Below, piece by piece: positions 3,003-9,373 of a stretch of DNA of 64,000 nucleotides. Numbering within the stretch: the first letter of the stretch is position 1; every line of letters starts with the position of its first letter. The position numbers and the translations under genes were made by a program. A model generated the notes under the pieces. The model did no database searches. It was not told the DNA's origin and saw only the letters and a program-made list of their open reading frames with translations. The stretch comes from Ornithinicoccus hortensis (lineage in GTDB: Bacteria > Actinomycetota > Actinomycetes > Actinomycetales > Dermatophilaceae), in assembly GCF_006716185.1 (NCBI RefSeq), contig NZ_VFOP01000001.1, forward strand, positions 248,001-312,000, given 5' to 3'.

Positions 3003-5102
3003 TCAGCGCCGGTTGCTGCCGATCTCGGTGGCCAGCTGGGCCGGCAGGTAGTCGTAGCGGACGAACTCGCGGGTGAACGTCGCCGACCCGTGGGAGACCG
3101 AGCGCAGGTCGATGGCGTAGCGGCTCAGCTCGTGCTGGGGCACCTCGGCGTGCACGACGGTGTGCCCCTCCTCACCCGCCTCCGTGCCGTGCACCTGGGC
3201 GCGGCGGCCGCGCAGGTCGGCCATCACCGGCCCGACGTACTCGTCGGCGACCGTGACGGCGATGTGGTCGACCGGCTCCAGCAGGGACACCGTCGAGTCG
3301 TTGGCGGCCTCCCGGAGGGCCAGCGCCCCGGCCGACTGGAAGGCCATGTCCGAGGAGTCGACCGAGTGCGCCTTGCCGTCCAGCAGGGTGACCCGCAGGT
3401 CCACCAGCGGGTAGCCGGCCAGCACGCCCTGGGCGATCTGGCTGCGGCAGCCCTTCTCGACCGAGGGGATGAACTGTCGCGGGACCGCCCCGCCGACCAC
3501 CTTGTCGACGAACTCGAAGCCGGCGCCCCGCTCGAGCGGCTCGATCCGCACGTGGACGACGGCATATTGACCGTGCCCGCCGGACTGCTTGACCAGGCGG
3601 CCAGTGCCGTCGACCGGTCGGACAAAGGTCTCCCGCAGGGAGGTGCGCACCGGGTCGACCTCGACCTCCACGTGGTGCCGCTCGCGCAGCCGCTCCAGCA
3701 GGTCGTCGACGTGCGCCGGGCCCAGCGTCCACAGCACGAGCTGGTGGGTCTCGGGGTTCTGCTCCATCCGCAGCGTCACGTCCTCGGCGACCACCCGTTG
3801 CAGCGCCGAGGCCAGCTTGTCCTCGTCCCCCGGGGAGGCGGCGCGCACTGCCACGGGCAGCTGCGGCTCCGGCAGCAACCAGGCGGCGACCAGCGCCGGG
3901 TGCTCCATGTCGGAGAGGGTGTCGGCGGTCTCGGCGTGCGCGATCTTGGTGACCAGCACCAGTTCCCCGGCGATCGCGCGGTCGCGCGGGGCGGTGCCGT
4001 CGGCCAGCGGGCTGCTGATCTGACCCACCCGTTCGTCGTCCTCGTCGTGGCCGGGGTGCCCGGCGACCTCGTGGCCGGCAACCCAGGACAGGTGGCCCGA
4101 GACGTGCAGCCGGTCGTCGCTGCGCAGCGTGCCGGCGAACACCCGCACCAGGGACAGCCGCCCGACATACGGGTCCGTCGTGGTGCGCACCACCTCGGCG
4201 ACCAGCGGCGCGTCAGGGTCGGCGCAGATGTCGCCGTAGTCCGAGCCCGAGGCGGTCGACACCGGGGGTATGCCGGCGGCCGGCGGGGCGGGGAAGCCCA
4301 CCTCGATCACCTCGAAGAGTTCCTCGATGCCGGCGGCCGTGGGCGGGTGGACCGGGATGATCGGGAAGAACCGCGCCGTCGCGACAGCGGCGCGCAGGTC
4401 CTCGCGCAGCATCGCCAGGTCGACGTCCTCCCCCTCCAGGTAGCGCTCGAGCAGTGACTCGTCCTCGGACTGCTCGATCACCGACTCGAGCACCGGGCCC
4501 CGGCGTTCCTCGATGTCGGCGGCCTCCGCGTCGGTGGGCTCCTCCGGGGCGGCGACACCGCCGTCGGGGTCGACCCGGCGCACCCGGCGCCGCAGCAGGT
4601 CCAGGACACCGGTGACCGAGCCGCCCTGCAGGATCGGGCGGTAGAGCGGCTGGGCGTCGCCGAAGACCCGCTGGCAGTCGGCGACCACCGCGTCGTAGTC
4701 GGCGCGGGCCAGCTCCAGCTGGGTGACCGCGACCGCGCGCGGCATCCCGACCGCGGCGCACTCCCGCCACAGCATCCGGGTCGGCTCGTCGACGGTGTCG
4801 CCGGCCGAGACCACGAAGAGCACGGCGTCGGCGGCGCGCAGCCCGGCCCGGACCTCGCCGACGAAGTCCGGACGTCCGGGGGTGTCCACCAGCGTGACGA
4901 CGAGGTCGCCGCGCGCGACGGTGGCCACCCCCATCCCGGTCGACGGCGGCTGCTCCCCCTGACGGACCTGGGCGCCCTCCGCGGCGGTGAGCCGCTCGAA
5001 GAGCATCGACTTGCCCGCACCGGCGGGACCGACGAGCACGACGTTGCGGATCTGGTCCGGACTGGCCGGCGGGACGAACGATCGCGACTCGGTGCGGCTC
5101 AT
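3003..5102 (-). CDS. elongation factor G-like GTPase (EF-G2 type)
   Basis: A 699-residue translational GTPase with full EF-G domain order: G domain, beta barrel (about 280-390), domain III, domain IV (FVRPVDGTGRLVKQSGGHGQYAVV) and domain V (HTVVHAEVPQHELSRYAIDLRS). P-loop GPAGAGKS and switch II DTPGRPDF are intact. The canonical switch I RGIT sequence is not seen: PSTGMGVATVARGD stands there. The G4 motif NKxD is replaced by TQLE. This matches the second actinobacterial EF-G class (M. tuberculosis FusA2 type), whose role in translation is unclear, not the housekeeping factor. It starts with ATG at 5102 and is divergent from a drug exporter. The family assignment is strong, the cellular role is not. 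Confidence 0.88.
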   Translation of the reverse strand: MSRTESRSFVPPASPDQIRNVVLVGPAGAGKSMLFERLTAAEGAQVRQGEQPPSTGMGVATVARGDLVVTLVDTPGRPDFVGEVRAGLRAADAVLFVVSAGDTVDEPTRMLWRECAAVGMPRAVAVTQLELARADYDAVVADCQRVFGDAQPLYRPILQGGSVTGVLDLLRRRVRRVDPDGGVAAPEEPTDAEAADIEERRGPVLESVIEQSEDESLLERYLEGEDVDLAMLREDLRAAVATARFFPIIPVHPPTAAGIEELFEVIEVGFPAPPAAGIPPVSTASGSDYGDICADPDAPLVAEVVRTTTDPYVGRLSLVRVFAGTLRSDDRLHVSGHLSWVAGHEVAGHPGHDEDDERVGQISSPLADGTAPRDRAIAGELVLVTKIAHAETADTLSDMEHPALVAAWLLPEPQLPVAVRAASPGDEDKLASALQRVVAEDVTLRMEQNPETHQLVLWTLGPAHVDDLLERLRERHHVEVEVDPVRTSLRETFVRPVDGTGRLVKQSGGHGQYAVVHVRIEPLERGAGFEFVDKVVGGAVPRQFIPSVEKGCRSQIAQGVLAGYPLVDLRVTLLDGKAHSVDSSDMAFQSAGALALREAANDSTVSLLEPVDHIAVTVADEYVGPVMADLRGRRAQVHGTEAGEEGHTVVHAEVPQHELSRYAIDLRSVSHGSATFTREFVRYDYLPAQLATEIGSNRR

Positions 5103-6626: not shown

Positions 6627-7394
6627 ATGCGAGGTATCGGAACGATCCTGACCGCTGGCACCCTCGGCGTGCTCCTGCTGGCCGGCTGCTCGGGCGAGGA
6701 CGACCCGGCCGAGGGCACCACCACCGACCAGGCACAGACGACGGAGGGGGCCAGCGCGGAGGCCGAAGACGACGCCGCCTCCGGGGTCGACACGGCGGAC
6801 GGCGACACCGCGACCGAGGACATCGCGACCGAGGACACCGCGACCGACGACACCGCGACCGACGACACCGCGACCGAGACGGAAGTCGCCGACGGCGACG
6901 GCGGCGGCTCGGACGAGACCGGAGCCGCGCCAGACCCGGATGCAGCGCCGGAGGAGGTCCTGGAGCAGGCCGGGCTGCTCGACGGCCAGCAGGTCGTCGT
7001 GGGGCCGGGTGGGGTCGACGACCCGACCGTCCAGGCGGCGATCTGCGACTACGTGGTCGGGACCCAGGACGAGGTGGCCGCCATCACGGGCGTCTCCGAC
7101 GACCTGACCCCGCTGGACGGCAACGGCTACACCCAGCGGGGCGGCAACGGGGGCGGCATCCAGTGCGTCTACGACGTCGACGGTGCGGACGGGTTTGGCA
7201 TCGTGCTGTGGAGCAAGGAGATTCCGAACGTCGAGGACGGCGACGAGACCCAACTCCTGGCAAGCGGACCCGTGGGCGAGCACTGGGGCACGGTGGCCTA
7301 CGCCCCGACCTTCGCCGGAGAGGTGATGGACGAGGCGGCGGCAGCCGCGTGGCTGGAGGACGCGGCGACCCGCTGGGGCGGCGCCTCGGCCTGA
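6627..7394 (+). CDS. lipoprotein with acidic repeat linker (paralogue 1)
   Basis: A 255-residue secreted lipoprotein. MRGIGTILTAGTLGVLLLAGC is a short signal peptide with lipobox LLAGC, so Cys21 should be lipidated. Residues 22-110 form an extremely acidic Asp/Thr/Glu-rich linker with tandem DTAT repeats. A conserved globular domain of about 140 residues follows, starting EEVLEQAGLLDGQQVVV. It contains two Cys (ICDYV and IQCVYDVD) that probably form a disulfide, and ends AAWLEDAATRWGGAS. I do not recognise the domain. The next gene encodes a paralogue with the same layout. A -10-like TAGGAT seven bases before the ATG suggests a leaderless message. Confidence 0.8.
   Translation: MRGIGTILTAGTLGVLLLAGCSGEDDPAEGTTTDQAQTTEGASAEAEDDAASGVDTADGDTATEDIATEDTATDDTATDDTATETEVADGDGGGSDETGAAPDPDAAPEEVLEQAGLLDGQQVVVGPGGVDDPTVQAAICDYVVGTQDEVAAITGVSDDLTPLDGNGYTQRGGNGGGIQCVYDVDGADGFGIVLWSKEIPNVEDGDETQLLASGPVGEHWGTVAYAPTFAGEVMDEAAAAAWLEDAATRWGGASA
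6810..6880 (+). repeat. 15-bp tandem repeats in lipoprotein linker
   Basis: About four to five imperfect copies of a 15-base unit of the type GCGACCGACGACACC, in frame, each encoding ATDDT or a variant. The repeats lengthen the acidic linker between the lipid anchor and the globular domain and are a likely site of copy-number variation. Confidence 0.75.
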
Positions 7395-7447
7395 GGGGCG
7401 ACTGGCGTATTTCCCACCGCTACCGGCTGGTTCGTAGCATGAGGATC

Positions 7448-8203
7448 ATGCGACTCATCGGAAAGCTCCTGACCGCTGGCACCGTCGGCGTGCTCCTCCT
7501 CACCGGTTGCGCGGGTGAGGACGACCCGGAGGAGAGCACCCCCGAGGACCAGCCCCAGGCCACGACCGAGACCGCCGAGGAGACCGACCCGGCCGGGGAC
7601 GACGCGGCGGCCACCACCGACGACGGGGGTCCGGCGGATGACGGGGACGACGGTGGCGCAACCTCCGAGGACCCCGCCGACGACACCGCGGGCGAGGAGA
7701 ACGGCGGCGACGACGGCACGGAGGGCGAGGACCAGGGCAGCGGCGACACGCCTGGGGACCCCCGGGAAGTCCTCGACTCGCTCGGCCTGCTGGACGGCGA
7801 CAAGGTCCGGGTGGATCCGGCGGCGCCGATGGACCCAGGCATCGCGCGCGCCATGTGCGAGTACGTCTTCGGCAAGCCCGCCCAGGTCGCCGAGGTCACC
7901 GGCGTGACCGGCGAGCTGACCCTGCTGGAGAGCAGCGGCTACGAGCAGTGGCCCGCCCAGGGCGACGGGCTGCAGTGCATCTGGGACGTGGACGGCGCCA
8001 ACGGCTTCGGCACGATGATGTGGAGCCAGCAGGTCCCCACGCCGAACAGCGAGGAGGCCTACATCGCCGCCGACGTCCCCGTCGGGGACTTCCACGGCGT
8101 CGTGGCCTACGCCCCGGACTACGAAGGCACCACGCTGGACGAGGACGCGGCGACCGCCTGGCTCGAGGACGCCGCGACCCGCTGGGCCGGCGCCTCCGAC
8201 TAG
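7448..8203 (+). CDS. lipoprotein with acidic linker (paralogue 2)
   Basis: A 251-residue paralogue of the preceding gene. The signal MRLIGKLLTAGTVGVLLLTGC has lipobox LLTGC, the linker is acidic but built from different Asp/Gly/Glu-rich sequence, and the same C-terminal domain begins REVLDSLGLLDGDKVRV. The paired Cys (MCEYV, LQCIWDVD) and the ending AWLEDAATRWAGAS are conserved. The domain is therefore conserved while the linker has diverged completely. An ATG at 7439 is in frame; 7448 is chosen because it aligns with the start of the paralogue. The gap to the first lipoprotein is 53 bases. The function is unknown; exposure on the outer face of the membrane is inferred. Confidence 0.8.
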   Translation: MRLIGKLLTAGTVGVLLLTGCAGEDDPEESTPEDQPQATTETAEETDPAGDDAAATTDDGGPADDGDDGGATSEDPADDTAGEENGGDDGTEGEDQGSGDTPGDPREVLDSLGLLDGDKVRVDPAAPMDPGIARAMCEYVFGKPAQVAEVTGVTGELTLLESSGYEQWPAQGDGLQCIWDVDGANGFGTMMWSQQVPTPNSEEAYIAADVPVGDFHGVVAYAPDYEGTTLDEDAATAWLEDAATRWAGASD

Positions 8204-8210
8204 CTCACTC

Positions 8211-8305
8211 CCGACCGGACGCGTCATCGGGCGGCCCCAGCACCCCACCAGACGCGTCATCGGGCGGCCTTCGTCTGCCACCGGACGCACGATCGGGCGA
8301 AACGC
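8211..8305 (+). repeat. 33-bp repeat array, three units, intergenic copy
   Basis: Three tandem units with a 33-base period (core GAC triplets at 8218, 8251 and 8284). The core is CCGGACGCGTCATCGGGCGG with changes. It fills the space between the convergent lipoprotein and nitroreductase stops. One forward frame reads PPDASSGG per unit. The same unit occurs inverted, in frame, inside the nitroreductase gene at about 8976-9068. Confidence 0.8.
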
Positions 8306-8308
8306 TGC

Positions 8309-9373
8309 CTACCCGTCGGTGAGTCGGTGGGAGCGCGCCGGGCGTTGAGCGGGTCGGCCGAGCCGGAACACCGCGTATGGCGACCGCCCGCCACCGGCGG
8401 CCTGCGACACCTGGTCCTCGGTTGCCGGGCAGTCCAGGAGCTGGCTCAGCGGATGGGCGGACAGGCCGCTGCGTCCGGCGGCCAGCCAGGTGCGCAGGAG
8501 GTCCCGCCCGAGCGCAAGCACGGCCTCGTCGGGAAGACCGGTGGGGGCGGTCAGCGCCACCACCGTCCCGACGGGCCGCGTGGTCGCCGAACGAGCGAGT
8601 GCCCGTGACAGTCCGGTCCGGCGCAGCACCGCCAAGGGCGTGGGTCGGAGCGCCAGTCGCAGGCCGGCCGACTCCCACCGGTTCAGTCCCATCGCCACGT
8701 CGCTCAGTCCGTCCAACACGTAGCGCGGATCGCCGGGGTCCAGCCGCAGCCAGTCCCGCAGCTCCCCGGTGGCGGGCCCCTCGAACGTCCACCGGTCTGC
8801 CCGGAGCAATGTCGCGCGGACCAGGTCGTCGGGGAGCACGTCCAGTCTCACCCCGTCCGCCAACCCGGCCGCGCCGGCCACCGAGGCGACCTCTTCCCGG
8901 GTGACAGGTGGGTCGGCATACCGGCCCCGCGCGGTCCGGCGCGCCACGAGTTCGGGGACCGTGAAGCGTGCATCGCCGCCCGATGGAGCGTCCGGTGGCA
9001 GGCCTTCCCCGACCGACGACGCGTCCGGTGGGGTCGGATCCCCGACCGATGAGACGTCCGGTCGCGGGTGGAGGGTGGCCACCGCCGCGATCCGGGAGGC
9101 CCGGTCGACGGCCGGGACGAGACGCAGCTCGAGGCCGAGGTCGGCCGCGACGATGGCCAGCGCCTCGGCCACGCAGCCGAGCGACAGGAACAGGTCGCGC
9201 CGGGTGGGGTCACCGACCTCCAGGACCCGGTCGGCGTGCCACCCCAGCCGCAGGGTGTCCGGCCCGTCGGCGGTGACCTCCCAGGGCTGGGTGTTGTGCG
9301 CGCTGGGGGCGCGCCCCCAGTCGGCGGAGCGGGCGAGCACCCGCTGCGCCGGCCCACCCGCCCCGGCACTCAC
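8309..9373 (-). CDS. nitroreductase-family (Acg-like) FMN protein with repeat insertion
   Basis: A 354-residue protein of the nitroreductase fold. The N-terminal motif RAPSAHNTQPWEV is the FMN-binding signature of the Acg/Rv2032-like group, and C-terminal HPLSQLLDCPATEDQV plus GRSPYAVFRLGRP also fit. Members bind FMN; enzymatic activity is often unproven. Residues at about 103-133 are a low-complexity PPDASSVG-type insertion from three 33-base repeats, apparently a later addition to a surface loop. Start GTG at 9373 overlaps the upstream GNAT stop (GTGA), so the two are translationally coupled. It is the last gene of the five-gene minus operon. Confidence 0.78.
   Translation of the reverse strand: MSAGAGGPAQRVLARSADWGRAPSAHNTQPWEVTADGPDTLRLGWHADRVLEVGDPTRRDLFLSLGCVAEALAIVAADLGLELRLVPAVDRASRIAAVATLHPRPDVSSVGDPTPPDASSVGEGLPPDAPSGGDARFTVPELVARRTARGRYADPPVTREEVASVAGAAGLADGVRLDVLPDDLVRATLLRADRWTFEGPATGELRDWLRLDPGDPRYVLDGLSDVAMGLNRWESAGLRLALRPTPLAVLRRTGLSRALARSATTRPVGTVVALTAPTGLPDEAVLALGRDLLRTWLAAGRSGLSAHPLSQLLDCPATEDQVSQAAGGGRSPYAVFRLGRPAQRPARSHRLTDG
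8976..9068 (-). repeat. 33-bp repeat array, three units, in-frame inside nitroreductase
   Basis: Units are phased at 8988, 9021 and 9054, exactly 33 bases apart. They are the inverse orientation of the array at 8211-8305 and recognisably the same unit (CCACCGGACGCGTCGTCGG on the minus strand). The 33-base period keeps the reading frame and yields PPDASSVG-like peptides. Confidence 0.8.

Follow-up and report, generated by a model that had tools for sequence, protein, structure and literature searches.

Phased direct-repeat arrays at stop codons of Ornithinicoccus hortensis as candidate 3'-end elements

The genome of Ornithinicoccus hortensis carries a family of tandem arrays with a fixed phase, a characteristic placement and orientation relative to genes, a habit of facing one another in pairs and a constrained core, and the family recurs in relatives within the genus. 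We tentatively favor the view that the arrays are sequence-specific 3'-end elements of a genus-restricted family that act on transcription termination or on DNA topology.

The starting point was a stretch of 64,000 nucleotides (the window) of the 3.94-Mb, single-contig genome. There the initial annotation had recorded three 33-bp units between convergent genes and three inverted units within a nitroreductase, and had proposed a mobile or copy-pasted minisatellite compatible with protein coding. That observation is confirmed and was understated, and its coding-centered reading is secondary.

Results

Two facing arrays in the window

Both sets of units were recovered at exactly 33-bp spacing (Table 1). 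The intergenic array is real, but the starts first assigned to its three units fall 3 bp inside them. Arrays A and B form one of the genome's facing pairs. The gene that hosts array B matches Pfam PF00881 barely at cut-off (23.6 versus 23.5 bits), and array B encodes PDVSSVGDPTPPDASSVGEGLPPDAPSGG within it, in a linker of low complexity and of variable length among 15 aligned orthologues. Consistent with the annotated idea of an insert, none of these 15 carries the units. In the G018 orthologue (L076), an insertion that is also of low complexity but different, GAGTVSGAGTVSGVRLVSGAG..., lies farther toward the C-terminus. No Pfam match was found for the plus-strand gene before array A (segment 7451-8203 searched); this gene and the adjacent one at 6627-7394 encode small proteins that look like paralogues and contain acidic segments of low complexity, and the gene at 6627-7394 includes a 15-bp tandem repeat at 6789-6878.

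Table 1. Arrays, units and host genes in the window, and sites of a second dispersed repeat elsewhere in the genome
Feature	Position	Strand	Remark
Array A	8215..8300	+	Three 33-bp-phased units between the stops of convergent genes (TAG ending at 8203; stop at 8309)
Unit A1 core	8215..8234	+	First-unit signature CCCGA before it
Unit A2 core	8248..8267	+	
Unit A3 core	8281..8300	+	Terminal variant, end GCGA
Array B	8976..9061	-	Three 33-bp-phased units, in frame and sense inside nitroreductase-like gene; faces array A
Unit B1 core	9042..9061	-	
Unit B2 core	9009..9028	-	
Unit B3 core	8976..8995	-	
Nitroreductase-like CDS	8309..9373	complement	Array B in its variable linker
Upstream gene	7439..8203	+	Stop codon 11 bp before array A
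Palindrome-like repeat	L038, lead of single unit 4480-4499		
Palindrome-like repeat	L040, 1691-1798		
Palindrome-like repeat	L054, 3798-3870		
Palindrome-like repeat	L034, 5314-5387		

A dispersed family with a constrained core

With up to three mismatches allowed, the motif occurs five times in the window against 0.11 expected from shuffling, and 74 times in the genome against once in the reversed control; a degenerate form gave 176 exact matches against two in the control. The proposed family, minisatellite-like and dispersed, with copies between genes as well as in frame inside them, is thus genome-wide. Forty-one stretches, the window included, were gathered by repeated searches, and a position-weight scan of these put the family at 219 units in 61 arrays, 58 of which have at least two units; at the same threshold nothing matched when the first 31 stretches were scanned in reversed form. 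One more array, at genome position 2118020, is diverged and stands outside the count of 61.

Each unit opens with a conserved core, ACCRGACGYNYSRNCKGGCG, about 20 bp long, and continues into a spacer rich in C; the family consensus is ACCRGACGYNYSRNCKGGCGG with a spacer of about 12 bp. Conserved arms flank a variable center of 6 bp. Arrays mostly hold 2-6 copies, and the spacing was 33 bp in 146 of 158 cases, 32 bp in 11 and 31 bp in one. The ends of arrays are distinctive: among the 42 arrays with at least three units in the first 31 stretches, GA precedes the first unit in 38 (later units mostly have CA), and the last unit ends in A rather than G in 16.

Agreement at the eight least variable core positions is 97.6% between neighboring units and equal between different arrays. 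At the variable core positions it is 66% between neighbors and 53% between arrays, and in the spacers 61% and 44%, respectively. The arrays are therefore not fresh duplications: their spacers have drifted, whereas phase and core stay constant, and the core is sequence-specifically constrained. This observation bears on the main rival explanation, which we take seriously but on balance doubt: that the arrays are selfish interspersed minisatellites of the MIRU or RPE kind, spread by an unnamed mechanism into stop codons and tolerant places, with no host function and with a 3'-end bias left by purging from promoters and genes. Neutral decay would not keep core and phase while the spacers diverge. 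Arrays in L043 and L046 do have a downstream flank in common (32 bp, 97%), as a spreading element might. The suggestion of mobility made for the window stands only as regards dispersal; no mobilizing enzyme or recombinase was seen among 20 neighboring proteins tested, and different arrays share the core but not the spacers. Nor did the 20 flanking proteins tested reveal a common theme.

Other known features were sought at the arrays. At 12 array loci no Rfam family reached its gathering score at an array, the sole match being a cobalamin riboswitch (L046, 5786-6005) that lies just past a facing array pair and not at an array. Anchoring to tRNAs was rejected: of 20 scanned loci only L050 has tRNAs, two of them, and neither is at its arrays. 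A DNA uptake word was rejected as well, as ACCGGACG is not over-represented, occurring 60 times on both strands of a 400-kb sample and in sense in two of 212 post-stop segments. A different, palindrome-like dispersed repeat of about 70-108 bp, with 84-94% identity, is present in both orientations in at least four places in the genome (Table 1).

Arrays lie at stop codons and face one another

Placement was examined for the 58 arrays, the three one-unit arrays being excluded, with genes called by codon usage and not taken from annotation. Fifty-six arrays are not inside genes: 24 occupy convergent gaps, 16 are sense and 10 antisense in co-directional gaps, and 6 are in divergent gaps. A same-strand stop precedes 40 of the 58 arrays, of which 35 start -15 to +40 bp from it; the core abuts the stop codon directly in six arrays. 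In 20 of the 24 convergent gaps, the distance from the array's start to its own stop is smaller than that from the array's end to the opposite gene. In a 400-kb sample of this genome, 23 of the gaps of at least 60 bp are convergent, 84 co-directional and 54 divergent, and by that measure convergent gaps are enriched for arrays. Most gene ends in the genome have no array, and 10 of the 58 arrays are antisense to both neighbors.

This distribution overturns coding compatibility, to which the initial annotation pointed, as the organizing principle: only two of the 58 arrays lie inside called genes, 35 start beside a same-strand stop, and relatives have a period of 22 bp. As 22 is not a multiple of 3, coding fails to explain the spacing.

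Eighteen pairs of arrays within 4 kb of each other face one another, and none is back-to-back or on the same strand; random placement gave a mean of 3.3 pairs of any kind and a maximum of 10 in 2000 trials. Purging alone, as invoked for a selfish repeat, fails to predict this excess of 18 facing pairs over 0 others, the sense orientation or the start at the stop codon. Ten of the facing pairs are 184-3257 bp apart, and eight enclose less than 80 bp.

Facing arrays could also bracket genes to be flipped by recombination, with the variable 6-bp center as the overlap region. The conserved arms around that center would suit such inversion sites, as would the fact that nine of the ten wider pairs have genes between them (part of a gene in the window). 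Against it stand the eight narrow pairs, the lack of a recombinase among the 20 neighbors tested, and the window pair, which encloses part of a conserved gene. We regard this explanation as very improbable.

Composition and structure of the array RNA

On the sense strand the leader is 61% C and 14% G, and the spacers are 59% C and 15% G. The maximum C-minus-G excess in 78 nt was 0.263 at arrays (n=58) versus 0.106 at the ends of other genes that face a neighbor on the opposite strand (n=133). RNA folding was weak, with a mean z of -0.69 over 54 arrays and values below -2 in six of the 54, and TTTT follows the array in one of 54. Pairing covariation between core positions was absent, the strongest signals coming from adjacent or near-adjacent positions. 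With RNA structure weak and T-runs nearly always missing, a hairpin (intrinsic) terminator is rejected as a general explanation; the arrays could still act through Rho or as a roadblock.

A C-rich, G-poor, unstructured sense RNA past the stop is a rut-type trait, present in O. hortensis. The arrays might accordingly be nothing but rut regions for Rho, with the core incidental, and such regions would also fit the start just past the translation stop, the scarcity of structure and T-runs, and the tolerance of translated copies in nuoB described below. A rut site is not known to require a consensus of 20 bp or a constant phase of 33 or 22 bp. Both would be unneeded on this explanation, which we judge improbable; the 22-bp arrays are hardly C-rich, and the 10 antisense arrays also speak against it.

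Copies that became protein

Copies inside genes are the exception; they are in frame and lie in linkers or tails that vary. Besides array B, a four-unit antisense array in the same genome forms the linker of a fused ABC protein (L093, 2675-6133) that, recognized by eye, we take to be CydD-CydC-like. Array units also tail proteins that we take, again by eye, to be NuoB: 13 units in G010, three in G019, about two in G023 and G006, and none in G008, nor in the tails of G000 (O. hortensis), G007, G028 and G030 (12 of 30 loci were inspected, eight and then four). The 13 units of G010 are in frame inside nuoB, which is followed by another gene of its operon, and with such in-frame arrays the array cannot be an unconditional terminator. 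Different species with 13, three or fewer units at one site of the NuoB tail, and insertions in tolerant linkers such as those of the nitroreductase-like and CydD-CydC-like proteins, are what a selfish repeat would produce. Selection on the peptide was rejected: the unit is translated in several frames and from both strands (PPDASSVG, HRAHGVATSDP, RPDVRTGMETA), and no particular peptide is favored.

Relatives and a 22-bp version

The genus was surveyed in 31 species, and 15 of them carry relatives of the family. Eight, O. hortensis included, have 33-bp arrays with a species-specific consensus (ten of the 31 genomes matched; G026 and G030 were dropped, their single matches being unlike the consensus). 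Seven have a 22-bp version built on CACCGGACG, of which O. hortensis has none; here too ten of the 31 genomes matched, and G002, G007 and G021 were dropped with one match each. The 22-bp matches number 139 in G012, 183 in G028, 140 in G017, 105 in G029, 22 in G030, 23 in G004 and 16 in G024. Species-specific consensus and copy number, and the lack of a match in about half of the species, favor a selfish repeat. In a two-protein tree, five 22-bp carriers cluster (99) together with G011, where the 22-bp version was not found, and five 33-bp carriers cluster (100) together with G008 and G014, where the 33-bp version was not found; O. hortensis is a separate branch, and G004, G024, G005 and G007 lie elsewhere. 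The presence of array-bearing and array-free species within one genus implies that any function is dispensable or replaced.

Further afield, the exact tandem pattern was found in eight of 186 genomes of the taxonomic family. One of these is among the 155 outside the genus (G072), resembles a simple repeat and is doubtful. At order level O. hortensis alone had the pattern among 396 genomes. One Microbacterium contig matched in a contig search and was judged doubtful.

The 22-bp version was examined in G012 at 20 array loci of about 26 listed, which hold 27 arrays, an array being defined there by a neighbor unit at 20-23 bp; spacing was 22 bp in 101 of 119 cases and otherwise 20-23 bp. Twenty of the 27 arrays follow a same-strand stop, five are antisense, one is divergent and one is in a gene, and in eight the stop of the upstream gene falls at one fixed point within the first unit. 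Neighboring pairs were facing in six cases, back-to-back in none and same-strand in one. Their C excess is weak (C 0.40, G 0.36), and with it the rut-type trait. The same genome has further intergenic arrays with periods of 51 bp and about 32/64 bp (L224 12523-12702, L223 11219-11345, L228 10631-10764), and G010 has another intergenic tandem family of 31-32 bp with GTACGAAACC-like words and unrelated sequence (L241 11189-11251 and 19462-19567; L254 14761-14834).

One convergent locus could be followed in 30 species. It holds four units in O. hortensis, a 22-bp array in G030 and a single unit in G023; in G012, G017, G028 and G029 there is a hairpin built from the word of the 22-bp array present in G030; G002 has an array of 22-bp period built on a different word, and unrelated DNA fills the locus in most of the remaining species. 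The arrays of G005 are uninformative because their near-symmetric core leaves the strand of the unit ambiguous. Spacings of 33 and 22 bp, both multiples of 11, fit a helix-like step of 11 bp better than codons and suggest that the units are recognized from a single side of the helix.

Discussion

A literature search, made without the organism name, found no description of this repeat family, which appears to be a new variant among bacterial interspersed repeats with a putative function deduced from its sequence. Several known systems resemble it in part. REP and BIME elements of Escherichia coli and other bacteria are described in PMC3733652, in its treatment of these repeats, as short, high-copy and intergenic, lying mainly in convergent and unidirectional gaps, sometimes in genes, and often in opposite-orientation pairs; gyrase binding, termination and mRNA stability are the roles proposed there. 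The present arrays are likewise short, high-copy and intergenic (24 convergent, 26 co-directional and 6 divergent, with 18 facing pairs). However, REPs are palindromes tagged GTAG/CGTC, whereas the present unit is no stable palindrome and is without those tags, and the arrays are direct repeats with an exact 33- or 22-bp phase. RPEs of Rickettsia, in the same source (PMC3733652), lie in intergenic DNA and also in frame in ORFs whose proteins are likely functional. Our repeat does so too, in the nitroreductase-like protein, the NuoB tail and the CydD-CydC-like linker. RPEs are palindromic, whereas here the units are direct and tandem, mostly outside genes and at stop codons. Neither the hairpin-forming palindrome of REPs nor the palindrome of RPEs was found in this family, with its lack of pairing covariation and fold z of -0.69.

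MIRUs are dispersed minisatellite-like arrays of variable copy number that overlap translation signals (PMC2734929, PMC12548453); as reviewed there, they measure 40-100 bp and are inserted at start codons, where they carry a coupled ORF. Our family likewise consists of minisatellite-like arrays dispersed through an actinobacterial genome, variable in copy number and at translation signals, but its core is about 20 bp and sits at stop codons, and with a 22-bp period no single reading frame can be kept. With units of 33 or 22 bp, no 40-100-bp unit with an internal ORF coupled at the next start codon was found.

Conserved repeats with diverged spacers of fixed length are also the mark of CRISPR arrays. 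The present spacers, however, are about 12 bp, which makes that identity implausible; they are C-rich and partly common within an array and between species, and the family consists of 58 small dispersed arrays.

How might such elements work at 3' ends? An 11-bp step would put the cores on one face of the helix, at 33 bp here and 22 bp in the sister clade. Positioned at stop codons, oriented with the gene and tending to face one another where transcription converges, the cores would be recognized by a protein that we infer to work at the ends of transcription units. It might aid termination, through Rho loading on C-rich, ribosome-free RNA or through a block to polymerase, or it might anchor a topology factor such as gyrase. 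Arrays within genes, array B among them, would be tolerated in-frame insertions in linkers and tails, where translation would shield the RNA. Control of topology, by analogy with what is proposed for REP elements, would fit the convergent placement. In Mycobacterium tuberculosis, gyrase is reported to be positioned ahead of polymerase (PMC5433769).

Against a host function of any kind stand the antisense and divergent copies, the roughly half of the genus without arrays and the absence of a known reader; against a 3'-end function in particular stand the many array-free gene ends and the themeless flanking genes tested. A selfish origin and a recruited function are mutually compatible.

A bolder version of the 3'-end reading, which we think rather unlikely, is a lineage-specific marking of transcription unit ends. 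A fast-evolving protein that binds DNA or RNA, perhaps a nucleoid protein or an insertion domain of Rho that has diverged, would read helically phased arrays at stop codons, and code and reader would co-evolve, switching between the 33- and 22-bp phases.

The findings matter in two ways. The NuoB tails, with 0 to 13 units, and the linkers of the nitroreductase-like and CydD-CydC-like proteins show a non-coding repeat turned into protein; since repeats became protein here, such repeat-rich linkers should not be taken as selected domains without further evidence. The ending of transcripts in high-GC actinobacteria, often without U-tailed hairpins, is poorly settled. The arrays suggest an undescribed kind of gene-end marker, and with a fixed phase, strand and position at the stop codon, and with presence in some species only, they offer a natural comparison for the question of how transcripts end.
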